Shown here: positions 2,892 through 48,575 of the stretch, piece after piece | How the letters are laid out: each line of letters opens with the position of its first letter | Position numbering within the stretch: position 1 is the stretch's first letter | NCBI GenBank assembly: GCA_945949525.1 | Contig: CAMFES010000004.1 | Location: forward strand, 1-58,530 | DNA length: 58,530 nt | Source of the DNA: an uncultured Veillonellaceae bacterium | GTDB taxonomy: Bacteria > Bacillota > Negativicutes > Selenomonadales > Selenomonadaceae | Direction of reading: 5' to 3' | The notes under the pieces: generated by a model | Databases searched by the model: none | Told to the model about the DNA's origin: nothing | The model's input: the letters and a program-made list of their open reading frames with translations, nothing else | Program-made: the position numbers and the translations under genes

Positions 2892-3965
2892 TCACCTGGC
2901 ATCATTTTCCGCAATGGCAATCAGCTGGAACTTGGCCGCTTCAAAGCACTCCAGAAGCTCCGGCGAAAATGTGCCGCATTCCCCGGCCTTGATCATACGG
3001 ATTGCCTCATCAACAGCATACGGCGCCCTGTAGCAGCGTGAATCAACCAGTGCATCAAACACCTCTGCAATGGATACAATCTGCGCCCACACAGGAATCT
3101 CATCACCCTTCAGCCTGTCAGGATACCCCTTGCCGTCATAGCGCTCATGGTGGTAGCGGCAGATATCATAGCAGTATCTGTAAAAGTCCTTGTCATCCAT
3201 CTCCTGCTTGAAGCACTCGAGAATTTCGCAGCCCCTGATGGTATGGGTCTTCATTATCTTGAATTCCTCCGGCGTCAGCTTGCCCCGCTTCAAAAGAATC
3301 TCATCCGGAATGCTCAGCTTGCCGATATCGTGCAGGGCGGCGGCATTTACCATCAGGGCGATATCCACCTCGTTGTAGTCAAATTCCTTGTGCAGTGCCG
3401 CCCAGGTATGGAACAGCACCTTGGCCATAGGCCGCACCTTGTCAATATGCAGGCCTGCCTTCATGCTGCTGCGGAACTCCACCACGGAGCTGAAGGCATT
3501 TATCAAAAATTCCGTGTTGGCCTCCAGCTTTTTCCGGCTCTGCCGCAGCTCCGTTTCCGTTTCATCCAGCTTCAGGGCCAGATTTCTTCTCTGCTCATAA
3601 AGCTCTATGATGTTCAGGGCGCGGCGAGTGATGACCTGACGGGAAAACGGCTTGTAGATAACATCTGCCACGCCGTACTCATAGGCCGCCACATCTGTAT
3701 CATAGGTAGCCTCCCCCGTGATGATAATCACCGGCACCAGCTCCAGATAGCCGTACTTTTTCATGTACTCCAGCACATCAAAGCCGCTCTGCTTTGGCAT
3801 AATCAAATCCAGAAAAATCAGCGACAACTTCTCAAAATTTTCCTGAATGCAGGCAATGGCTTCTTCACCATCGGCAGCCTCCAGAATTTCATACTGCTCG
3901 CCAAATATCTCACCCAGCACATCGCGGTTAAACTCAACATCATCAGCGATTAAAATCTTCTTCAC
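2892..3965 (-). CDS. Response regulator with HD-GYP phosphodiesterase domain
   Basis: The N-terminal receiver (KILIADDVEFN at the start, phospho-acceptor Asp in LIFLDLIMPKQ) is joined by a helical linker to an HD-GYP domain (about 150-345). The HD pair is in ALHDIGKLSIPDEIL, and HHERYDGKGYP is the full HHExxDGxGYP signature. Known family role: hydrolysis of cyclic di-GMP under control of receiver phosphorylation. GTG at 3965 is chosen because AAGGAAGG lies 5-7 bases upstream and the translation then begins VKKILIADD, as normal for a receiver; a longer reading frame adds nine unlikely residues. It is first in the phosphorelay cluster with the Hpt and hybrid kinase genes. Confidence 0.92.
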   Translation of the reverse strand: MKKILIADDVEFNRDVLGEIFGEQYEILEAADGEEAIACIQENFEKLSLIFLDLIMPKQSGFDVLEYMKKYGYLELVPVIIITGEATYDTDVAAYEYGVADVIYKPFSRQVITRRALNIIELYEQRRNLALKLDETETELRQSRKKLEANTEFLINAFSSVVEFRSSMKAGLHIDKVRPMAKVLFHTWAALHKEFDYNEVDIALMVNAAALHDIGKLSIPDEILLKRGKLTPEEFKIMKTHTIRGCEILECFKQEMDDKDFYRYCYDICRYHHERYDGKGYPDRLKGDEIPVWAQIVSIAEVFDALVDSRCYRAPYAVDEAIRMIKAGECGTFSPELLECFEAAKFQLIAIAENDAR

Positions 3966-4201
3966 AATACCCTTCCTTTCTCCAAAACTCATGCCGTTCC
4001 CATCCGCATGATTGCCTTACCATCCTGCGCCTGTCAGGCCAGACATCCCCAACATGCCGGTATAGACTTCCGCAACTACTTCTATTATGTGATTGAATGC
4101 CCCGCCTGTCAATAAATTTTATATTTTCATTTTACCGTTATACTGATTTGCTGCTTGCGTCATATTCTGAACGATATAATTGCATATACTAAAGTATGCG
4201 C

Positions 4202-4374
4202 CAGACCTGTGAAAGAGCATCATGGCATGTGCCATTCGCAGGGCACTTAGACGCGCCTCGGTGCTTAGCAATACGCGAGCCGCAGGCGAAGCGTGAGCTT
4301 AGCACCGCTAGGCGTGGATAGTAGCGCGAGCGTGCCTGCGATGGTACTGCCATGATGCTCTATAAAAAGGTCTG
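4202..4374. repeat. Long nested palindrome, family member P1
   Basis: A large imperfect hairpin fills most of the 446-base gap between the HD-GYP regulator and the receiver fragment. The outer arms are CAGACCT/AGGTCTG (4202-4208, 4368-4374) and AGAGCATCATGGCA with its exact reverse complement (4214-4227, 4348-4361). Further complementary segments lie inside, including CGCGCCTCGGTGCTTAGC against CTTAGCACCGCTAGGCG. The GC-rich centre shares CGCGCCTCG and GCGAG motifs with the elements at 20954 and 34029. No coding potential is seen. It could be a REP/MITE-like mobile palindrome or a structured RNA. Confidence 0.75.
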
Positions 4375-4411
4375 ACCGTACAAACGTACAAATATATAAA
4401 TATACAAGCAA

Positions 4412-4762
4412 TTAAGCACGCAGGAACTTAGTCAGCGCCTCCGCAACCTCCTTCATATTGATCGACTTGGACACAAACCCATTCATGCCATGCTTTTCCG
4501 CGTCCTTCCTGTCCTCGTCAAAGGCATTGGCAGTCATGGCAACTATCGGAACAGCGGCCAGTGCCTTATCCGGCAGCTGGCGGATGCGCTCAGTGGCATC
4601 ATGGCCGTTCATAACAGGCATCTGAATATCCATCAGCACCATGTCGTAGTAGCCCGGCTGGGACTTCGCCACCATCTCTACCGCCTCGGCGCCATTCTCC
4701 GCAGTTTCCACCAAAAGTCCGTAGTCACCCAGGATTTCACAGGCAATCTCCCTATTTATGCC
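4412..4762 (-). pseudogene. Truncated receiver (REC) domain, remnant of a hybrid kinase
   Basis: The reading frame gives a receiver domain that starts abruptly at INREIACEIL. It keeps the phospho-acceptor motif VLMDIQMPVMNG and the later IVAMTANAF segment, but lacks the N-terminal strand with the acidic metal-binding pair (usually LLVEDN). Extending the frame upstream only translates the transcription terminator of the neighbouring SEC-C gene (4772-4816), so no natural start exists. The best reading is the 3' end of a hybrid histidine kinase whose 5' part was deleted. It is similar in layout to the receiver of the kinase at 157-2460. Confidence 0.75.
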
Positions 4763-4771
4763 TGTTAACGA

Positions 4772-4816
4772 AAAAAAGCACGGCGGAGATGGTATACACC
4801 TCCACCGTGCTTTTTT
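4772..4816 (-). terminator. Terminator of the SEC-C protein gene
   Basis: The stem AAAGCACGG.GGAG pairs with CTCC.CCGTGCTTT and is flanked by A and T runs, so it could act in both directions. It lies 13 bases after the SEC-C gene stop and marks the truncated end of the receiver fragment. Confidence 0.85.
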
Positions 4817-4828
4817 CAATTCTTCAAC

Positions 4829-6013
4829 CTAGTTCCATTCCTTGCCTATGCAGCAATTTTTATATTTCTTGCCGCTGCCGCAAGGACATGGCTCATTCCT
4901 GCCTATCTTGCGGCCCTCCCGTACCACGGCAGGACGAGGCTGGCCGGCAGTCTCTGCCAGGGTATGCCCCTTCAGCATCCACAGCGGCAGATTTTCATTA
5001 TAGGCGCCAATCAGCTGATACAGCTCCTCCGTATCAGGCTTGTTGCCCATCTTCAGCTGATTATCTGCCAAAAAGCCCACGATTTCCTTCATGCCATAGC
5101 CATTCTGGATAATGATGGTAATGCTGCGCACAGCCTCTGCCGCCTGCAGCACATCAAGTCCCTTCTTCTGCATGAAATACTGTGCCAAGGCACGATATGC
5201 CTCGGTGGACTCAATGTAGCCATCCTGCCCTGCATCATAGAGCTTGTCATAAGGCAGGTCAGCATAAGCAAGGCCTCCCTGCTGCCGCTGTGCCTGCTGC
5301 AAAGCCTCCGGATTCATGAGGGATTCATGCATCAGGTCATGCTGACCCGTTACCACATGAGGATACCAGCAGCCACCGTTGAAAATGATGCCCATAAAAT
5401 CAGAAAAATCCAGCTCAGCATCAATATAATCACAGACCTTCTTAAACAGCTCATCATAATTGATGATGCCGTAATAAAAGACCATGCCAGCCGCCAGCCG
5501 CATTACCTCGGTATTCAGATTGACCGCATCGGCAAAGGCACCGTTGTTGATTTTCTGGTACTCTGCCTGTATTTCCTCCGGCATGAACCATACCAGGCTG
5601 CCATCCTGCATGCCGCAGAACAGCACACCGATGCCCCGGAGATAATCCAGCCGATAATCCTCCCACTGCACATTTTCCAGCAATCCCTTGTGCTGGCAGG
5701 CATAGTCAAACAGCTCCTTCTGCTCCTGAAAAGCACTGACAAACCAGCGTCCGGCGAATTTTACCACCTCCGGCCCCACCATGGCCAGCATCTCTGCTTT
5801 CTTGACACGGTCAAGGTTTTTGGCAATAGGCAGATTCAGGTTGTACTGAATATCCTCCAGTTCCTGCTTGGTCATGCCCTTCAATGCTTCCTCAAGGGTC
5901 AGCTTCTCCGGCAGCTTGTGGCGGCGCAGGCTCTTCATGCGCTCCGCCTTCTGTTCGTCCATCAGGGCATTATACTCAGCCTCGGAAAAGGTAAATTCTC
6001 TTTCTGTTTCCAT
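4829..6013 (-). CDS. SEC-C metal-binding motif protein of unknown function
   Basis: About 394 residues. Only the C-terminus is recognisable: [19 protein letters not shown], a SEC-C zinc-binding tail like that of SecA (the SecA of this window ends the same way). The remainder is mostly helical with acidic and aromatic stretches and has no catalytic motif I recognise. ATG at 6013 (METEREFTF) is preferred, with GGAG 13 bases upstream. The longer frame to a TTG at 6079 would overlap the amidase gene and has no ribosome site. It lies downstream of the amidase, in the same direction. SEC-C tails usually mediate zinc or protein binding; no function is claimed. Confidence 0.75.
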
Positions 6014-6071
6014 CTTTGCAAATTCACTCCAGTTGCTATCGAATATCATCTGCCAGCTGTCCGGCACAAAC

Positions 6072-7292
6072 TCAGCCAAAGAAGCTGCGGATTCCCTTCA
6101 GAAGACCCTCGGCAGCCTTCTTGATGCCTGCCTCGGAATTCATCAGCCGCTCTTCCTTGTCGTTGGATATAAATGCCATCTCTATCAGTGCCGCCGGCAT
6201 GGTTGTATGCTTCACCACATAGAAGTTACAGCTCTTGGTTCCCCTGTTGCCTGTTCCCAGCTCTGTCACCAGCCCCTCGGCCAGCTCCCTGGCCAGGCGC
6301 TGGCCCGCCTTGGAGCCGTTCACATAATAATACCCTGTCGTACCGCTAGGAGAGCTGTTTGTAAAGGAATCCATGTGCATAGAAATAAAGATGTCCGCAT
6401 TTTTATCATTGCCTGCATCGCATCTTGCCTGTAGCTCCTCAATATCCGAAGCCTTGGCCTTCTTTGGCGAAACCTCCGTATCGGTACTGCGGGTCATGAT
6501 TACCGTAGCACCTTCCTTGACCAGCAGCTTCTGCAGCTCCAGCGCCACCCGGAGAGTGACCCCCTTCTCCGTAACGCCTGTCGGGCCTATAGCTCCCACA
6601 TCACTGCCGCCATGACCGGCATCCAGGGCAATTACTTTCCCCTTTATGCCCGGCGTAAAGACAGGCTCACCCTTGACCACTACATCAGTGCCTCCGGCGT
6701 TGCCCTGGTTCTTGTCGGCAGCGGTACCAGTCCCAGTACCCGTGCTGCTGCCTGTACCTCCCCCGCTGCCCGCAGTTTCATCCTTTGGCTTCGGCTTTGG
6801 ATTGAAGTCTATGGCAGAGCCGCTGCTGCTGCCCCCAAGATTGCCAAAATCCAGCACAATACGATAAGCCGTACTGCCGCCCTTCAGGGGAAAAACCTTG
6901 TAATTATTCTTGCCCACACTGCTCTCAACCACCACGCGCACCGTGCTTGGGTCATGCTGGGCAATGCGCACTGCCTTGGCAAACCTGCTGTCAATAGTAG
7001 TGGATTTCTTGACGTCGGGAGCAAGCCATGCATTCTGTATATCCACCACAATCCGCTGTGGATTGGACAGCACGCTGACCTTGTAGGAAGCCTCCTTCGT
7101 CCCATCCAGCACAATACGCGTCTTGTCAGCGCTGTTGCTTACCCTGACAGCCTTTATTTCCGACATGGAACCGGCTCTTTCCGCAAAGGCTGCCTCGACG
7201 CGCGCCGTACCAAATATGAGCATGAAGCCAGCGATAAGCAGCATCGCCTGCCCCAGCAGGCCCAGCCACGCTCTTTTTTCGCAATATTGCAT
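6072..7292 (-). CDS. N-acetylmuramoyl-L-alanine amidase with AMIN domain
   Basis: Exported peptidoglycan amidase. It has a signal peptide (hydrophobic segment [19 protein letters not shown], cleavage probably after RVEA), an AMIN domain (about 40-140) that targets amidases to the envelope, and a low-complexity Gly/Ser/Thr linker (about 150-190). The C-terminal Amidase_3 domain shows its zinc ligands in LDAGHGG, TEKG and SMHMDS, and the catalytic Glu in ALIEMAF. It cleaves the bond between MurNAc and the stem peptide, typically in cell separation. ATG at 7292 is chosen for GGAGG seven bases upstream. In enterobacteria such amidases are controlled by FtsEX-EnvC; ftsEX and an M23 gene occur at 18-21 kb here. 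Confidence 0.93.
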
Positions 7293-7322
7293 ATTTGATT
7301 CCTCCAAATGTTCTTATAGCAG

Positions 7323-8102
7323 TTACAGCATATTTTTCAGGAATGCTATGGTTCTTTCCTGCACAGGATGGGCAAAGAATTCCTCCGGCCGTCCCTGCTC
7401 CACAATCACGCCGTCAGCCATGAACATCACATGGTTGGCCGCCTCCCTGGCAAAGGCCATCTCGTGGGTCACCACCACCATGGTCATGTGTTCAGCCGCC
7501 AGCTCACGCATGGTTTTCAGTACCTCTCCCGTAAGCTCCGGGTCAAGAGCCGAGGTAGGCTCATCAAAAAGCATAATATCAGGCTTCATGGCCAGGGCAC
7601 GGGCAATAGCCACCCGCTGCTGCTGACCGCCGGAAAGACGTCCCGGATAGCAGTCCCGCTTCTCAAAAAGACCCACCTTCCTGAGAAGCTCCTCCGCCTC
7701 CGGCCGCACCTCCTCCGCCGGACGCTTCTTTACCTGCACAGGTGCCTCCAGAAGATTCTGCATGACCGTCATGTGAGGAAACAGGTTGAACTGCTGAAAA
7801 ACCATGCCCGTGCAGGACAAAATCTCCCGCGACTCCACCTCACTGACGTATTCGGCCACGCCGTCAGCATTGTTCTGCACCAGCACCCTGCCCTTGATTT
7901 CGATGGTACCGGCATCAATCTCCTCCAGCCTGTTGATACAGCGCAGCATGGTACTCTTGCCGGAGCCGGAAGGCCCGATAATCGCCAGCACATCACCCTT
8001 GGCTACGGAAAAATCAATGCCCTTCAGTACCTCCAGCTCGCCAAAACGCTTGTGGATACCTCTCATCCTCAGCATGCTATTATCATTCATCATATTTTGC
8101 AT
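7323..8102 (-). CDS. Polar amino-acid ABC transporter, ATP-binding protein
   Basis: ABC ATPase of the PAAT (GlnQ/HisP) type. It has Walker [11 protein letters not shown]-loop near [13 protein letters not shown], signature LSGGQQQR, Walker [13 protein letters not shown] and H-loop VVTHEM. It powers import together with the permease whose 3' end it overlaps by 20 bases, a sign of translational coupling. The ATG at 8102 has GGAGG six bases upstream. The ligand is an amino acid or related polar compound; the exact one cannot be read from the sequence. Confidence 0.95.
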
Positions 8103-8727
8103 AATGCGCCTCCAGCTTCTTGAATGCCCAGGTCAGAACAAAGGTCATGGCCAGGTAAAACACGCCTGCAATAACAAAAGGCGTCATATCAAACTCCCGC
8201 TGCACGATGGTCCGGGCCACCCGCAGCAGGTCATTCATGGCGAGAATATAAATCAGGGATGTATCCTTGACCAGATTAATCGTTTCGTTGCTGATCGGTG
8301 GCAGGACGTGACGAATCATCTGCGGTATAATAATCCGGCGCATGGTCTGAGGATAGGTCATGCCAAGGGTCTTGGCCGCCTCATACTGGCCGCGGCTGAT
8401 GGACTGAATACCGGCACGAAAAATCTCCGCAAAATAAGCCGCATAGTTCAGCACAAAGGCCAGCAGTGCAGCAGCGATATCCGGCAGCTTTATCCCCACC
8501 AGCGGCAGGGCAAAATACACAAACAAAAGCTGCAGCATCAGCGGCGTACCGCGCATTATCCACACGTAAAACTCCATCAGAAGGCTGACAGGCTTCAGGC
8601 TGCTGATGCGCCCCAGCGCCGCCAGCAGGCCGGTAGGCAGTGCCAGCACCAGCGTAATACAAAAAATCTCCAGCGTAACCTGGGTGCCTTCCAACATTAA
8701 CACAATAGTGTGCAGCAGGTTATCCAT
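8083..8727 (-). CDS. Polar amino-acid ABC transporter, permease
   Basis: Inner-membrane permease of the HisM/GlnP family with about five membrane spans. The EAA loop that contacts the ATPase is visible as [21 protein letters not shown]. It belongs to an importer operon: binding protein (8879-9667), this permease, then the ATPase. ATG at 8727 or the TTG two codons earlier may be the start; both follow AAGGAAG. A terminator-like hairpin between the binding-protein gene and this one probably lowers permease and ATPase expression relative to the binding protein. Confidence 0.93.
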
Positions 8728-8792
8728 AAGCAAAAAAACTTCCTTTCATACAAAAAAGCACAGATATTTATATTTTACTTCAAATCCGCGCA

Positions 8793-8831
8793 AAAAAAAA
8801 GACCTGCCGACAAAAATCAGCGGTCTTTTTT
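8793..8831 (-). terminator. Terminator/attenuator inside the amino-acid importer operon
   Basis: The hairpin AAAAAGACC.GC..GA/TC..GC.GGTCTTTTT, followed by T residues, sits between the binding-protein gene and the permease gene. Partial read-through would give the usual excess of binding protein over membrane components. Confidence 0.75.
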
Positions 8832-8878
8832 CCTTCCGGCATCATCACCGGACAGCAGCCCTGAAAAACAAGGGCAGA

Positions 8879-9667
8879 TTATTTGGTTATATCCTTGGCG
8901 AACCACTTCTCGGAAATCTTTGCAACAGTGCCGTCAGCCTTCATCTCGTCAAACACCTTCTGCACCTCATCCCGCAGAGCCTGGTCATCCTTGCGGAAGG
9001 CAAAGCCGAACTGGCTCACATCACCGATGACGGTTTCAACGGCCTCGATGTTCTCCGGATGCTTGCTGATGTAGTAGCGGCCGATAATCTCATCGCCCAC
9101 CACAGCATCAATGCGGCCGCTTTCCAGATCCATGAAAGCGGTAATATAGTCAGGATAGTATTTTACTTCCTTCATGGAGTCCTTCAGGGCGGTATTCTTG
9201 GTGAAATACTCCTCAGTAGTGCCGCCGCTCTGGGTGCCTATTGCCTTGCCGGCCAGGTCAGCCTCGCTGGCGATGGCAATTTTGTTGTTCTTGGAAACAA
9301 AAACAATCTGGCGGTTGTCCATGTACGGGTCGCTGAACAGCATGTTTTCCTTGCGCTGCTCAGTGATGTCAAGACCGTTCCAAAGCACATCCACGCGGCC
9401 GCTCTTCAGCTCCGCCTCCTTGGAATTCCAGTCGATGGCCTTGAACTCCACCTCCCGGCCCAGGCGCTTGGCGGCCTCCTTTGCCAGGTCAATATCAAAG
9501 CCCACGATTTCGTTCTTTTCATCCTTGAAGCCCATCGGCGGGAAGTTGTCATCCAGACCAACGACAATCTTCTTGCCCTCTTCCTTCTTGGCAGTATCGC
9601 CGCCGCAGCCGGCCAGGGCAGTAACCGCCAGAACCAGCATCATGCACAACGCAAAAATCTTCTTCAT
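8879..9667 (-). CDS. Polar amino-acid ABC transporter, substrate-binding lipoprotein
   Basis: Lipoprotein signal peptide with lipobox LAGC (MKKIFALCMMLVLAVTALAGC), then a SBP_bac_3 (PAAT) fold: IVVGLDDNFPPMGF, GFDIDLAKEAAKRLG and DVLWNGLDITEQRKE are the usual strand and ligand-pocket segments. It would be anchored in the cell envelope and deliver a polar amino acid to the permease and ATPase encoded downstream. It is the first gene of the operon. The importer at 30.7-33.1 kb is a separate paralogous system with reverse gene spacing and a different lipoprotein. Confidence 0.95.
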   Translation of the reverse strand: MKKIFALCMMLVLAVTALAGCGGDTAKKEEGKKIVVGLDDNFPPMGFKDEKNEIVGFDIDLAKEAAKRLGREVEFKAIDWNSKEAELKSGRVDVLWNGLDITEQRKENMLFSDPYMDNRQIVFVSKNNKIAIASEADLAGKAIGTQSGGTTEEYFTKNTALKDSMKEVKYYPDYITAFMDLESGRIDAVVGDEIIGRYYISKHPENIEAVETVIGDVSQFGFAFRKDDQALRDEVQKVFDEMKADGTVAKISEKWFAKDITK

Positions 9668-45585: not shown

Positions 45586-45981
45586 TCAGCCAGTTACATT
45601 GTCAGGAGGAAAAAGATTATCGAGGGTTGCCCGCATCCTCAGCTTCCCCTTCTCCGTCACATGGGAATAATATTTGGCCGTAATAGCGATGCTGCTGTGT
45701 CCCAGCCGCTTGGATACAGCATCCATTGTTTCCCCTGCCTCCAGCAGCATGGTGGCGTGAGTATGGCGCAGGGAATGAGTAGAGCCGCCCCCAAGATTTT
45801 TCTTGCACCAGGCGTTAAAAAAACGAAAATCCGGCGCACATATCTGCTTGCCGCTCTCAATCCGGCAGCAGACATAATCCCCCTTGTTGTACCTGCTGTT
45901 TCCCACCGACTGCCGCACATCCATCTGGCGCAGCTGCTCCGTCTGCAAAAGCAGCTGCAGCTGTGTGCCATAAAGTTTCAA
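45586..45981 (-). pseudogene. Truncated tyrosine recombinase (phage-type integrase)
   Basis: Only the C-terminal part of a tyrosine integrase remains: HSLRHTHATMLLEAG (box II HxxR), RLGHSSIAITAKYYSHV (second His region and the nucleophile Tyr). The first catalytic Arg and the whole DNA-binding N-terminus are missing. The coding match begins about LLLQTEQLRQMDV, next to the promoter of toxin module 1. It is therefore a relic of a mobile element, not a working recombinase. Confidence 0.8.
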
Positions 45982-45999
45982 TACACAAATTCAAACTGC

Positions 46000-46029
46000 T
46001 TTACGAACATACATAAGTTATGCTATAAT
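46000..46029 (+). promoter_or_regulatory. Promoter of type I toxin module 1
   Basis: -35 TTTACG (46000-46005), -10 TATAAT (46024-46029), spacer 18. The spacer GAACATACATAAG.TATG.TATAAT is shared with the promoter of module 2. Confidence 0.8.
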
Positions 46030-46074
46030 AAACATGCTGCTCATCTGCCTTCTCCCAGGGAAGGAGGTGTGAAG

Positions 46075-46155
46075 ATGGAGACGTTTGGTACGTTTTTGTT
46101 ATCTGTCGTGGCAGGTGTAGTTTCCCACTACATTTGCAAATGGCTGGATGGGTAA
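46075..46155 (+). CDS. Fst-like type I toxin peptide, module 1
   Basis: 26-residue peptide METFGTFLLSVVAGVVSHYI followed by CKWLDG. It is a single hydrophobic helix with a charged end, like Fst/Ldr-type membrane toxins. GGAAGGAGGTG lies eight bases before the ATG, a very strong ribosome site, but CCTTC (46048-46052) can pair with GAAGG just before it, which would hide the site in an upstream helix as known for fst. The peptide shares HYICKWLD with module 2. This is too short for standard gene callers. Confidence 0.8.
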   Translation: METFGTFLLSVVAGVVSHYICKWLDG

Positions 46156-46205
46156 TACGTGAGCAGTCAGCCTAAAGGCTGGTCCACCTTTAAAAAATTG
46201 GAATA

Positions 46206-46237
46206 GAAAACCCCCGATCTACCCATCGGGGGTTTTC
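46206..46237. terminator. Bidirectional terminator of toxin module 1
   Basis: GAAAACCCCCGA pairs with TCGGGGGTTTTC. Convergent toxin and antitoxin transcripts both end here, so they overlap at their 3' ends. Confidence 0.88.
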
Positions 46238-46272
46238 GTTTGGGTGAAAATGGAAACGTTTTTGTCGTTCTC
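46206..46272 (-). ncRNA. Antitoxin RNA of module 1
   Basis: Minus-strand promoter: -35 TTGCAA (46302-46307), -10 TATAAT (46279-46284), spacer 17. The RNA of about 67 bases begins in a direct repeat (46250-46272, ATGGAAACG then TTTTTGTCG) of the toxin start region (46075-46100, ATGGAGACG then TTTTTGTTA), so it can pair with the toxin mRNA at its start codon as well as at the shared terminator. This is the two-site pairing layout of RNA II in par/fst. Confidence 0.75.
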
Positions 46273-46365
46273 ACGGTCATTATAGCAAAAAAATATATAA
46301 ATTGCAAGAAAAATACAGTTCGATATCTCTACTCACCTATATCATATTTTACAACAGAGCAGATA

Positions 46366-46704
46366 TTACTCTTGCAACAAATTTAAGTATCTGCCATATT
46401 CGCTCTTTGGAATTTTTAGTATTTCCATAGCTTTTTCGGCAGAATAATTCAGCGTCTGCATGATAGCACGAATGCTATTTGTTGTAGCAATGGATAGTCC
46501 TTCATTGCGGCCTTCGATTCTGCCCTGTTCTTCGCTCTTTTTCTTTTCACGTGCAATCAAAATGTTCAGCGTCATATATTCTCGCCTCCAGTCTTCGCGT
46601 CTTTTCGCCCGTATAACCTCGCCGTCAATAGACGCAATAGTTTCTGTATTCGTTTTATCATACCGAAAACATATTTTGAAAATCTTATTTTTTATTGAGA
46701 ACAT
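46366..46704 (-). pseudogene. Truncated Rpn-family nuclease, C-terminal fragment
   Basis: The frame encodes the C-terminal tail of an Rpn/PD-(D/E)XK transposase-like protein: RREYMTLNILIAREKKKSEEQ, GRIEGRNEGLSIATT and LKIPKSEYGRYLNLLQE. The nuclease core is absent, and the first residues overlap the promoter of toxin module 2. It is more A/T-rich than the surroundings. A relic of the same family as 21299-22255. Confidence 0.7.
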
Positions 46705-46723
46705 ACATAAGATATGTTATAAT
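46695..46723 (+). promoter_or_regulatory. Promoter of type I toxin module 2
   Basis: -35 TTGAGA (46695-46700), -10 TATAAT (46718-46723), spacer 17. Shares the ACATACATAAG spacer motif with module 1. Confidence 0.82.
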
Positions 46724-46765
46724 GATGATGCTGCCACCTCCAATCTCTAGAAAGGAGGTGTATAT

Positions 46766-46864
46766 ATGTTGGTGCTTGTGTCATTCATAGTGTCTGTTAC
46801 GGCAGGTATAGTAACGCATTATATCTGCAAATGGCTTGACAGCCACTTAAACAGCAGGCAGTAA
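46766..46864 (+). CDS. Fst-like type I toxin peptide, module 2
   Basis: 32-residue peptide MLVLVSFIVSVTAGIVTHYI followed by CKWLDSHLNSRQ. It has one membrane helix and a polar tail. The ribosome site GGAGGTG (46754-46760) is perfectly complementary to CACCTCC (46735-46741), giving a seven-base hairpin that would shut off initiation until processed or opened. The spacing and the peptide are homologous to module 1 (shared HYICKWLD), while lengths and N-termini differ. Confidence 0.82.
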   Translation: MLVLVSFIVSVTAGIVTHYICKWLDSHLNSRQ

Positions 46865-46899
46865 GCCTGGAGATTAAGCCTCTCTTAAAAATAGGAATA

Positions 46900-46929
46900 G
46901 AAAACCCCCGACCGCCATCGGGGGTTTTC
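46900..46929. terminator. Bidirectional terminator of toxin module 2
   Basis: GAAAACCCCCGA/TCGGGGGTTTTC, the same stem as module 1 with a different loop, preceded by the same GGAATAG. Confidence 0.88.
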
Positions 46930-46971
46930 GTTTTTACAGCGTATATATGTCTTACGCTTGCGTCATTCTGC
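46900..46971 (-). ncRNA. Antitoxin RNA of module 2
   Basis: Minus-strand promoter: -35 TTGCAA (47001-47006), -10 TATACT (46978-46983), spacer 17. The RNA covers 46938-46970, which repeats the toxin ribosome-site/start region: GTATATATGT, then GCTTG and GTCATTC are shared in order with 46760-46790. It can therefore pair with the toxin start codon and at the common terminator. Confidence 0.78.
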
Positions 46972-47058
46972 GTTTTTAGTATATCACATCGTAGCGTGAA
47001 TTGCAAGAACAATAATGTTCGACATTAATATTTGCTTATATATATATTTGACACAATA

Positions 47059-47085
47059 GAAGGACGGCTCGATGAGCCGCCCTTC
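47059..47085 (-). terminator. Terminator of ompM
   Basis: GAAGG.CGGCTC pairs with GAGCCG.CCTTC around loop GAT, followed on the minus strand by T-rich sequence. Confidence 0.85.
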
Positions 47086-47131
47086 GTTGTTTTTATGCTT
47101 TTTTGAAGCGAGTGACTTGCTAATCCTAAGA

Positions 47132-48451
47132 TTAGAACAGGAAGTCAACACGGCTCCATACGCCGGTAACCTTGTCATCAGTGGTGAGCAGGGTATCCTT
47201 GCCGTTGAAGTACTTGAAGGTGGATACGATGTTCTTTGCCCAAGCGTAGTCAGCACCAATCTCCCAACCCTTCAAGGAACGGAGACCTGCAAAACCATTC
47301 TTGTGGTCATAGGTAGCCTCGAAAGCTGCGAATGGAGCCAAGGAGCGATATGCTACATAAGCACCCCAGGAACCCTTGTCAGCAGCGTTGGCACCCTTGT
47401 AGTTCAACTGAATGCTGTAAGCATTCTTTGCAGCTTCAATAAACTTGCCAGTTGAACGGTTAACAGATGGACCAAAAGCATAGTCAGCAGTCAGCTTTAC
47501 GTTCTTGTCGAAGGCATAGCCAACACCCAGGTCAACTACACGGAAGGAACCATCATCACTAGCCTCATCCTGGAAAGTCTCGGTAGCAGTTACATTGTGG
47601 TAGCCGATACCTGCATCCCACTTGCCATTCTGATAACCAGCCTCAACAGCCCAGTAAGTACCATAAGGCTTCTTACCAGCACTAGCAGCCAACTCTCCGT
47701 TGGTATTGTAACGACCAGCAGTAGCCTTTACCTTCCAGTTCTCAGTAGGAGCATAAGCTACCTCAGCACCAGTTACGCGAGTATCGAATACGAGGCCATG
47801 GGAAGCATCGGAGAAGGAACCGAAACGACCGAGCTTAACATTAGCCTTGCCGTATACACCCTCAGTCCAAATCTTCTCAACAGTAACACTACCCGGGGTG
47901 GAAGCGTCCAAATCAGCAGTATTATCAACAGCAATGTTGTAATCAATCTGAGAATGGCCAGTCCAATTCTCATTGATGGTGATGGATGGCTCAAAACGCA
48001 ACTTCAATTTGTTGTCCTGGGAATCCCTGTGGTTATCGCTGTGCTCATAGTTAGTGGTGTTCCAGTCATAACGGATCAAGCCGTTCCACTTAACGTTGTC
48101 GGTCTTAGCCTCCAGGTTAGCAACGCGAACGCCCAGGTTAGCCAGCTCATCGGAGAACTCTGCGGACAGCTTCTCGATGAGAGCCTTGTTGTTGTTGTCA
48201 GCAGCATCGGACTTAGCCATAGCCTTGGCAACAATCTGAGCCATCTCATAACGGCTCATGCTCTGGTCACCCTTGAAGGTGCCATCAGCGGAATAACCGT
48301 TTACTACGCCGTCCTGTACCAGCTGAGCAACAGCATCGTATGCCCAATGGTCTGCAGGAACATCAGCGAAAGGATTAGCAGCTGCAAAAGTAGTGGATGC
48401 AGCGCCTACTACCAGAGCGGTAGTCAATGCGGATACGAGAGTCTTCTTCAT
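47132..48451 (-). CDS. SLH-domain outer-membrane porin (OmpM-type)
   Basis: 439 residues. A signal peptide (MKKTLVSALTTALVVGAAST, then TFAA) is followed by one SLH domain (ANPFADVPADHWAYDAVAQL, SRYEMAQIVAKA), a short coiled coil (about 95-125) and a 16-strand-like beta barrel of alternating polar and aromatic residues ending in Phe, as porins do. In Negativicutes such proteins are the main outer-membrane porins and tie the outer membrane to peptidoglycan through the SLH domain. CsaB (22353) would make the pyruvylated ligand in species using that polymer. AAAGGAGGA precedes the ATG at 48451. Confidence 0.95.
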   Translation of the reverse strand: MKKTLVSALTTALVVGAASTTFAAANPFADVPADHWAYDAVAQLVQDGVVNGYSADGTFKGDQSMSRYEMAQIVAKAMAKSDAADNNNKALIEKLSAEFSDELANLGVRVANLEAKTDNVKWNGLIRYDWNTTNYEHSDNHRDSQDNKLKLRFEPSITINENWTGHSQIDYNIAVDNTADLDASTPGSVTVEKIWTEGVYGKANVKLGRFGSFSDASHGLVFDTRVTGAEVAYAPTENWKVKATAGRYNTNGELAASAGKKPYGTYWAVEAGYQNGKWDAGIGYHNVTATETFQDEASDDGSFRVVDLGVGYAFDKNVKLTADYAFGPSVNRSTGKFIEAAKNAYSIQLNYKGANAADKGSWGAYVAYRSLAPFAAFEATYDHKNGFAGLRSLKGWEIGADYAWAKNIVSTFKYFNGKDTLLTTDDKVTGVWSRVDFLF

Positions 48452-48575
48452 AGAGAAATTCCTCCTTTTACAAATAAAAAACACTTATTTGTCGGAGATG
48501 AATCTCGAAGCCTTATCCCAAGAGTTTCCATGTTTCCTCTGCAATGTACTTCGTTTTCACTTCCAACATGTTTAT

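Follow-up and report, generated by a model that had tools for sequence, protein, structure and literature searches.

Two predicted par/fst-type type I toxin–antitoxin modules with Fst/Ldr-related peptides beside an SLH-porin gene in a Selenomonadaceae genome

Two modules in tandem

The window, that is, the whole stretch of 58,530 nucleotides analyzed here (contig CAMFES010000004.1 of assembly GCA_945949525.1, from an uncultured Veillonellaceae bacterium placed by GTDB in the Selenomonadaceae), contains in this order galE, galU, an integrase fragment of 131 aa, a first module (M1, 45999-46307), an ORF of 112 aa, a second module (M2, 46695-47006), an SLH-porin gene and a tRNA gene; the names galE and galU are our assignment, made by recognition of the translated ORFs. 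The 112-aa ORF between the modules (46366-46704, - strand) matches no Pfam or NCBIfam family above cut-off and may represent the tail of a PD-(D/E)XK transposase-like protein.

M1 begins with a toxin promoter (46000-46029, + strand; TTTACG-18-TATAAT with TG before the -10, 10/12 in the promoter scan), which bears out the strong forward promoter of the original prediction. The 26-residue hydrophobic peptide named there is also confirmed, its ORF (46075-46155, + strand, stop included; METFGTFLLSVVAGVVSHYICKWLDG) having conserved homologues and a frame that stays open upstream as far as 45583. In the leader, a hairpin (46040-46071, + strand) pairs the Shine–Dalgarno GGAGG in the predicted fold; the helix proposed to hide the ribosome site is recovered to this extent, whereas its energy is ordinary and no better than that of shuffles (z -0.18). 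Similarly, the proposed bidirectional terminator (46206-46237, both strands) is present in the sequence as a fully paired stem of 13 bp, but only short T tracts accompany it, and the hairpin is absent from the output of the terminator scan on either strand. The convergent promoter, with its spacing of exactly 17 bases, is found as described on the - strand (46279-46307; TTGCAA-17-TATAAT with TG before the -10, 10/12 in the promoter scan) and would give an antitoxin RNA of about 67 nt (46206-46272, - strand), with a predicted 5' end 7 nt after the -10. The claimed direct repeat of the toxin start region stands as well: copy a (46069-46086, + strand), lying over the toxin start codon, aligns with copy b (46244-46261, + strand), which would template the 5' part of the antitoxin RNA, with a score of 13 (z 6.8 against dinucleotide shuffles) that exceeds those of all 108 non-cognate downstream regions. 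Promoter-like sites number 9 in the 2.5-kb region, as compared with 4.1 (sd 1.7) in shuffles. The predicted full-length M1 mRNA, the first nine bases of which are paired with a segment 3' of the ORF, is more stable than shuffles (z -5.5), and the predicted antitoxin RNA has a z of -3.7.

M2 is a second complete module, 694 bp further on, with the same order of parts and another repeat sequence. It comprises a toxin promoter (46695-46723, + strand; TTGAGA-17-TATAAT, 11/12 in the promoter scan), a leader hairpin pairing the Shine–Dalgarno sequence (46735-46760, + strand; predicted fold, z -1.55), a 32-aa toxin ORF taken from the ORF list (46766-46864, + strand, stop included; MLVLVSFIVSVTAGIVTHYICKWLDSHLNSRQ), a repeat copy a placed by the repeat alignment over the toxin start codon (46760-46786, + strand), a two-way terminator listed by the scan on both strands (46900-46929), a repeat copy b (46941-46968, + strand; score 14, z 5.5, above all 108 non-cognate regions), a predicted antitoxin RNA (46900-46971, - strand) and the antitoxin promoter (46978-47006, - strand; TTGCAA-17-TATACT, 9/12 in the promoter scan). 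Relative to shuffles, the predicted full-length mRNA and antitoxin RNA of M2 have z values of -4.0 and -5.5, respectively, and the first five bases of the mRNA are unpaired.

The M1 and M2 peptides share 58% identity, and their coding sequences differ by 10.5 synonymous and 6.5 non-synonymous changes on 13.2 and 43.8 sites, respectively. The predicted duplex between the antitoxin 5' part and the leader of its own toxin amounts to -36.9 kcal/mol in M1 and -40.4 kcal/mol in M2, as against -12.8 and -21.4 kcal/mol with the leader of the other module. Judged from the sequence, M1 and M2 are very probably two independent type I toxin–antitoxin modules of the par/fst type.

Cognate repeats and convergent promoters in related modules

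The peptide search in related genomes suggested with the original prediction recovers homologues with the same flanking repeat, hereafter the branch. From 145 loci, 113 distinct modules were picked by peptide pattern and Shine–Dalgarno score, so that the Trp motif is kept in this set by construction. Four modules with fewer than 180 bases downstream were left out. For each of the other 109, the toxin start region (-25 to +45) was compared by alignment with the 180 bases past the stop codon, both of the same module and of all the others. In 72 of the 109 modules the highest score falls to the module's own downstream region, and in 98 this region ranks within the top 5%; with near-duplicates and same-locus pairs excluded from the comparison, these counts become 81 and 99. 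Among 81 non-redundant modules it is the best in 63 and within the top 5% in 73, and the mean cognate score of 14.1 compares with a maximum of 8.0 in 10,000 permutations. A clear cognate repeat is present in 95 of the 109 modules, M1 and M2 among them; no clear repeat (z < 3) is found in the other 14, two of which (L011 and L017) belong to this genus. The repeat often spans about -10 to +23 of the toxin gene, which corresponds to the ribosome site and the start codon, and is partial in some modules. Applied to eight annotated Fst loci, the same search returns the same geometry in six (scores 14-20, with no shuffle control) and no such geometry in two (scores 7.5 and 6.5). The approximately 95 paired toxin-start and antitoxin sequences, which change together, constitute a ready data set on the evolution of antisense specificity among coexisting modules.

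In the 95 modules with a clear repeat, the reverse promoter was sought as a sigma-70-like site within 100 bases spanning the repeat edge. It reaches at least 9/12 in 92 modules (19.7% of shuffles) and at least 10/12 in 57 (2.5% of shuffles), with a spacer of 17 in 68 of the 92. From the end of the -10 to the repeat edge the median distance is 10 nt (range -2 to 55), and because of this placement the antisense RNA is usually expected to start at the repeat edge. A forward promoter of at least 9/12 is present in 74 of the 95 modules, as compared with 15% of shuffles. The par/fst layout originally proposed for M1 thus finds its counterpart in M2 and, by cognate repeat (95/109) and reverse promoter (92/95), in the relatives. 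Hairpin stems of at least 7 bp precede the repeat in 93 of the 95 modules, followed by at least four T within ten bases in 68 and preceded by at least four A within ten bases in 64, all three counts having no shuffle control. The Shine–Dalgarno sequence is paired in 49 of 65 distinct leaders versus 644 of 1300 control folds in which the upstream part had been shuffled, a modest effect. No YUNR U-turn motif occurs in the terminator loops of M1 and M2; according to the available part of one account of the family, this motif is not present in all homologues (PMC7472228).

In three other loci (L010, L018 and L020, in genomes G001, G003 and G002, respectively), the first module is followed by a second toxin copy that lacks its head, and the leftover codons of this copy serve as the -35 of the antitoxin promoter of the first module, 17 bases from TATAAT; this -35 reads TTGCAA in G001 and TTGCCA in G003 and G002.

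Relation of the peptides to the Fst/Ldr superfamily and to pneumococcal homologues

For 19 core codons, the pooled pN/pS is 0.25 (6002 pairs among 113 modules at nucleotide identities of 60-90%), a value biased downwards because the homologues were gathered by peptide similarity; the C, W and D columns are invariant in 104 aligned peptides, which is partly due to the selection of the set. The Trp is W23 in both the M1 and M2 peptides, located between the membrane helix and the C-terminus, and lies nine residues past the Gly of an SxxxG motif (S10-G14 in both). Among 110 distinct peptides, the motif is found in 80 with its Gly nine residues ahead of Trp; 22 have Ser instead and 8 have neither. 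The tail after WLD, with a mean of 4.7 residues in the 113 modules, is SHLNSRQ in M2 and a single G in M1, so that the Fst-type charged tail is missing in M1. As described in the available portion of PMC7472228, peptides of the family have a charged tail preceded by a Trp and, in most cases, a P/D/S/TxxxG motif.

The original prediction regarded the peptide as belonging to a family different from Fst, a view not upheld here: by profile comparison, the HYICKWLD peptides belong to the Fst/Ldr superfamily as a divergent branch that stands outside the curated Fst family. With the curated Fst model (NF033608, cut-off 26), M2 scores 13.2 bits and M1 gives no match; at E up to 0.1 the model detects 17 of the 104 branch members, the best at 1.3e-4 and below the cut-off by score. 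A profile–profile alignment (hhalign) of the 104 branch members with 10 Fst peptides gave 80.3% (P 1.3e-5) over 32 columns, as compared with 3.8% and 2.7% for reversed decoys. In addition, a bridge peptide with HYFCKWLD encoded in the host family (G037, L147) passes the Fst model with 29.2 bits (27.7 in the genome search). We discarded a MAFFT alignment that set the branch and Fst apart by a gap of four residues, preferring the profile alignment, in which Gly and Trp are in register. Of 61 genomes of the host family searched, one (G159) has canonical-looking Fst peptides over the cut-off, with three matches, the match in G037 being the bridge peptide. A canonical-looking Fst module of the same host family, with a flanking repeat recognized by eye, lies at G159:C10:96035-96097 (L146).

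Because the window peptides miss the Fst model yet architecture and profile match, we use the term par/fst-type for the architecture of the loci and place their peptides in a divergent branch of the superfamily. The parts defining the family are, in the text available for PMC7472228, convergent promoters, a shared terminator, direct repeats and leader helices. M1 and M2 resemble the pAD1 par/fst system (Fst/Ldr) in having convergent promoters, a shared two-way terminator, direct repeats of which one covers the toxin start and the other lies at the 5' end of the antitoxin, a leader hairpin over the Shine–Dalgarno sequence, a hydrophobic peptide, an SxxxG at the position of the Fst PxxxG, and a Trp nine residues after the Gly. 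They differ from it in the peptide branch (HYICKWLD), the short tails and the terminator loops without YUNR, and also in that the named loci of the branch lie mainly on contigs of Negativicutes and Clostridia.

Other small-peptide families show weaker likeness. The model of the Clostridioides difficile type I toxins (NF047374) gives M1 19.5 bits, far under its cut-off of 60, although weak similarity is seen for M1 (E 9e-4) and for 54 of the 104 branch members (E up to 0.1). These systems share with M1 and M2 the convergent toxin and antisense RNAs and a small membrane peptide, whereas the characterized C. difficile toxins are 34-53 aa long in the portion of PMC6563280 available, compared with 26 aa in M1 and 32 aa in M2. 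Hol_Tox (PF16935), annotated as a holin-like toxin and likewise a small hydrophobic peptide, was rejected for M1 (12.3 bits versus a cut-off of 23.3, with 14 of 34 profile positions matched), as were LydA holin and the remaining Pfam matches of M1 and M2, all under cut-off. Among the 104 branch members, LydA holin matches 44 (best 0.0016) and the Ldr toxin 14 (best 0.016) at E up to 0.1, and PHROG 738, a group with no function assigned, matches 46 at E up to 0.01 (best 1e-5), M2 being unmatched. A sequence search of the PDB returned three matches only, with E of 2.1 to 7.3.

At the gathering score, Rfam reports only two tRNAs in the window. A permissive scan gives 29 matches, of which only SpF66 (RF02442) was pursued, because it is full-length on both modules and encodes a peptide; BSnc120, ohsC, OrzO-P, RefA1 and further matches were judged as a group to be hairpin lookalikes. 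The visible consensus of RF02442, which is typed as an sRNA, encodes an Fst-like membrane peptide ...DVIAGIILYFVCKWLDGKE. M1 and M2 match it end to end with 29.2 and 27.1 bits, under the gathering score of 42, and are its only matches in the genome of the window (E 3.6e-5 and 1.3e-4). Of 14 branch loci tried, 7 reach E 0.01 or better and two exceed the gathering score, one on an Enterococcus hirae plasmid (L062, 68.4) and one in a streptococcal satellite phage (L065, 102.9). Sub-threshold scores are non-specific, as a canonical Fst locus (L156) obtains 29.7, and 7 of 14 control genomes give matches to the model when E up to 10 is allowed, all of them under the cut-off. We take RF02442 to be F66, equating the two by name and length.

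F66 was described as a 239-nt sRNA detected by Northern analysis, and the words toxin and Fst are not found in the available main text of that report (PMC3395615); a list of 2025, as far as available, equates srn502, F66 and Spd_sr109 (PMC12323649). In the accessible text of PMC9812572, spd_sr109/Srf-27 and spd_sr111/Srf-28 are tandem par homologues examined by RNA-seq and Northern analysis, with Northern signals of the toxin mRNA stronger than those of the antitoxin and a partial disagreement between the two methods. In the part available of PMC6212727, these systems are said to have been predicted earlier from orthology, and Srf-27, annotated by similarity, went undetected in that study. The pneumococcal relatives had thus already been recognized as Fst-like. 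The pneumococcal modules stand in tandem, as do M1 and M2; the differences are that M1 and M2 match RF02442 under the gathering score, that canonical Fst scores equally high and that the pneumococcal host belongs to another class. Within the open-licence PMC literature, what is added here is the large branch in anaerobes and the evidence from cognate repeats.

Proposed mechanism, genomic context and distribution

The anatomy, the homologues, the cognate-specific complementarity and the promoter placement are observed, and we infer transcription in this organism, toxicity, the RNA lifetimes and the physiological role. In the proposed mechanism, the + transcript would be a toxin mRNA with its Shine–Dalgarno sequence folded away, encoding a single-span membrane peptide. 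The - transcript would start at the edge of the downstream repeat and, because of this start, its 5' part would be complementary to the ribosome-binding site and start codon of the toxin, while its 3' end, formed by the shared terminator hairpin, would be complementary to the 3' end of the toxin mRNA. Pairing at both places would block translation of the toxin; upon loss of the module or decay of the short antitoxin RNA, synthesis of the peptide would begin, and the membrane would be its site of action.

Several other explanations deserve consideration. The peptide may be a non-toxic regulator or a partner of a membrane protein, placed under antisense control in a par-like layout. Such a role would suit M1, which is without a charged tail, and the pneumococcal finding of more toxin mRNA than antitoxin (PMC9812572, available text), and the only verified function in the family is, in the corresponding portion of PMC7472228, plasmid stabilization by its founding member. 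Nevertheless, we consider it unlikely in view of the homology to Fst/Ldr toxins, the cognate pairing in 95 of 109 modules and the presence of the branch on small plasmids and phage records (L056-L065), as expected for addiction modules. We see little room for a + transcript that is a non-coding regulatory RNA with an incidental ORF: RF02442 is indeed typed as an sRNA and two antitoxin-only copies have no visible ORF, but a pN/pS of 0.25 and the C, W and D residues invariant in the 104 aligned peptides (in part an effect of set selection) argue for a coding function, and the text available for PMC9812572 regards the pneumococcal member as encoding a toxin.

The modules might also be a chance assembly of promoter-like and repeat-like sequences. 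Matches to the promoter consensus are weak by themselves, shuffles of the region averaging 4.1 sites, but the cognate match in 95 of 109 modules and the permutation maximum of 8.0 against 14.1 refute this explanation, to which we assign practically no weight. Finally, M1 may be a decaying copy, with only M2 at work, as might be suspected from its shorter tail and weaker T tracts and from the two relatives that keep the antitoxin half of an M1-like module alone. This appears rather improbable, as all parts of M1 are present, the frame is intact, the forward promoter reaches 10/12, the reverse promoter also reaches 10/12 versus 9 in M2, and the cognate duplex amounts to -36.9 kcal/mol. It is thus with considerable confidence that we regard the locus as a real type I toxin–antitoxin pair of a known kind, with the par/fst layout and the mechanism set out above.

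The surroundings of this toxin–antitoxin pair have a syntenic counterpart in another genome, G004 (L174, G004:C34:78000-92000), in which positions 3103-9592 correspond to 45586-48484 of the window. There, a full-length integrase (tyrosine recombinase) and three SLH-porin paralogues of differing orientation are accompanied by two toxin modules between the porins and a solo M1-type antitoxin, and porin2 and porin3 carry inverted arms of 445 nt (98%). This SLH-porin locus could be a porin-switching locus. The window copy, with its truncated recombinase and one porin, looks as if collapsed from a locus of the L174 type.

A DNA search with the M1 antitoxin region detected solo M1-type antitoxins at G004:C34:86017-86081 and G009:C73:234-319 (L174 and L176), both beside SLH-porin genes and both with a promoter, the repeat and a hairpin of their own, the -10 in G009 being weaker (TATAAC). 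Apart from the two G004 modules, no toxin peptide pattern is found within 14 kb (G004) and 7 kb (G009) around them. Their RNAs are predicted to pair with the M1 leader at -35.3 and -34.9 kcal/mol, as compared with -13.0 to -26.5 kcal/mol for five other toxins. Loci keeping the RNA and losing the peptide had been named in the original prediction as evidence against it; this arrangement occurs at these two M1-type antitoxins, but not in the full modules, where the peptide frame is conserved. Because of this conservation, in a set chosen by peptide similarity, the two toxin-less copies are read as solo remnants. A start-pattern search yields only the known solo copies in G004 and G009 and is silent on toxins, because the toxin start of M1 itself mismatches the pattern; a match in G013 was dropped, as it lies inside a longer reading frame. 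The site G004:C8:50210 has only the hairpin stretch in common with the M1 antitoxin.

As a conjecture read purely from this genomic context, and one that we hold to be doubtful, the modules of this genus may guard a recombination-prone SLH-porin array, with the solo M1-type antitoxins acting as chromosomal anti-addiction RNAs. Since modules sit between inverted porin paralogues, deletion of a porin by recombination would also delete the module and expose the cell to the toxin; if so, the solo antitoxins would protect cells no longer carrying the cognate toxin gene.

Matches at E up to 10 occur in 12 of the 16 genomes of the genus, and in 9 of them at E 3.3e-5 or better; the other three are discounted as chance because their matches reach only E 0.37-0.50. 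At E up to 0.01, matches are found in 124 of the 189 genomes of the host family, spread over 20 of its 30 genera, with up to 9 per genome. An even draw from the phylum gave matches in 9 of 299 genomes, and the branch is therefore patchy. In a public genome collection, at least 591 stretches match the YICKWLD pattern and at least 496 encode a relative. Among the matches listed, 80 loci are known by name, mostly from Negativicutes and Clostridia and including Selenomonas, Veillonella, Phascolarctobacterium, Blautia, Butyrivibrio and Faecalibacterium, together with many bins labeled Selenomonadaceae, Lachnospiraceae and Oscillospiraceae. With these occurrences, RNA-controlled toxins of the par/fst type extend to Negativicutes and to many Clostridia of the rumen and gut, by way of a peptide branch whose M1 and M2 members lie beyond the reach of the curated Fst model.

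On mobile elements, tblastn at E up to 10 finds 259 plasmid records, of which 201 come from Enterococcus (E 3-4 for the Enterococcus records among the matches listed), and 14 phage records; ten plasmid and phage loci inspected (L056-L065), comprising small plasmids and phage records, all carry the branch. Labels are poor. None of 20 plasmid matches listed has an annotated feature beneath it, in a PLSDB gene table that is incomplete and with 7 of the 20 checked as branch members, and the 14 phage matches lie under CDSs named hypothetical or DNA-binding protein (five), under terminase (four weak matches) or under no annotation (five). For canonical Fst, 22 of 30 plasmid matches, spread among the matches listed, are annotated as Fst toxins.

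A third, distant relative (MMIDIACSFLISVVAGIVAAYIYDRMH) is encoded on contig 24 of the same incomplete genome (G000:C24:15787-15834, L024), with promoter-like sequence, a Shine–Dalgarno sequence and a hairpin nearby. Elsewhere, three or four toxin modules stand in tandem arrays about 330-400 bp apart (G072:C42:50840-51579, G054:C148:24623-25365 and G380:C23:95580-96852).
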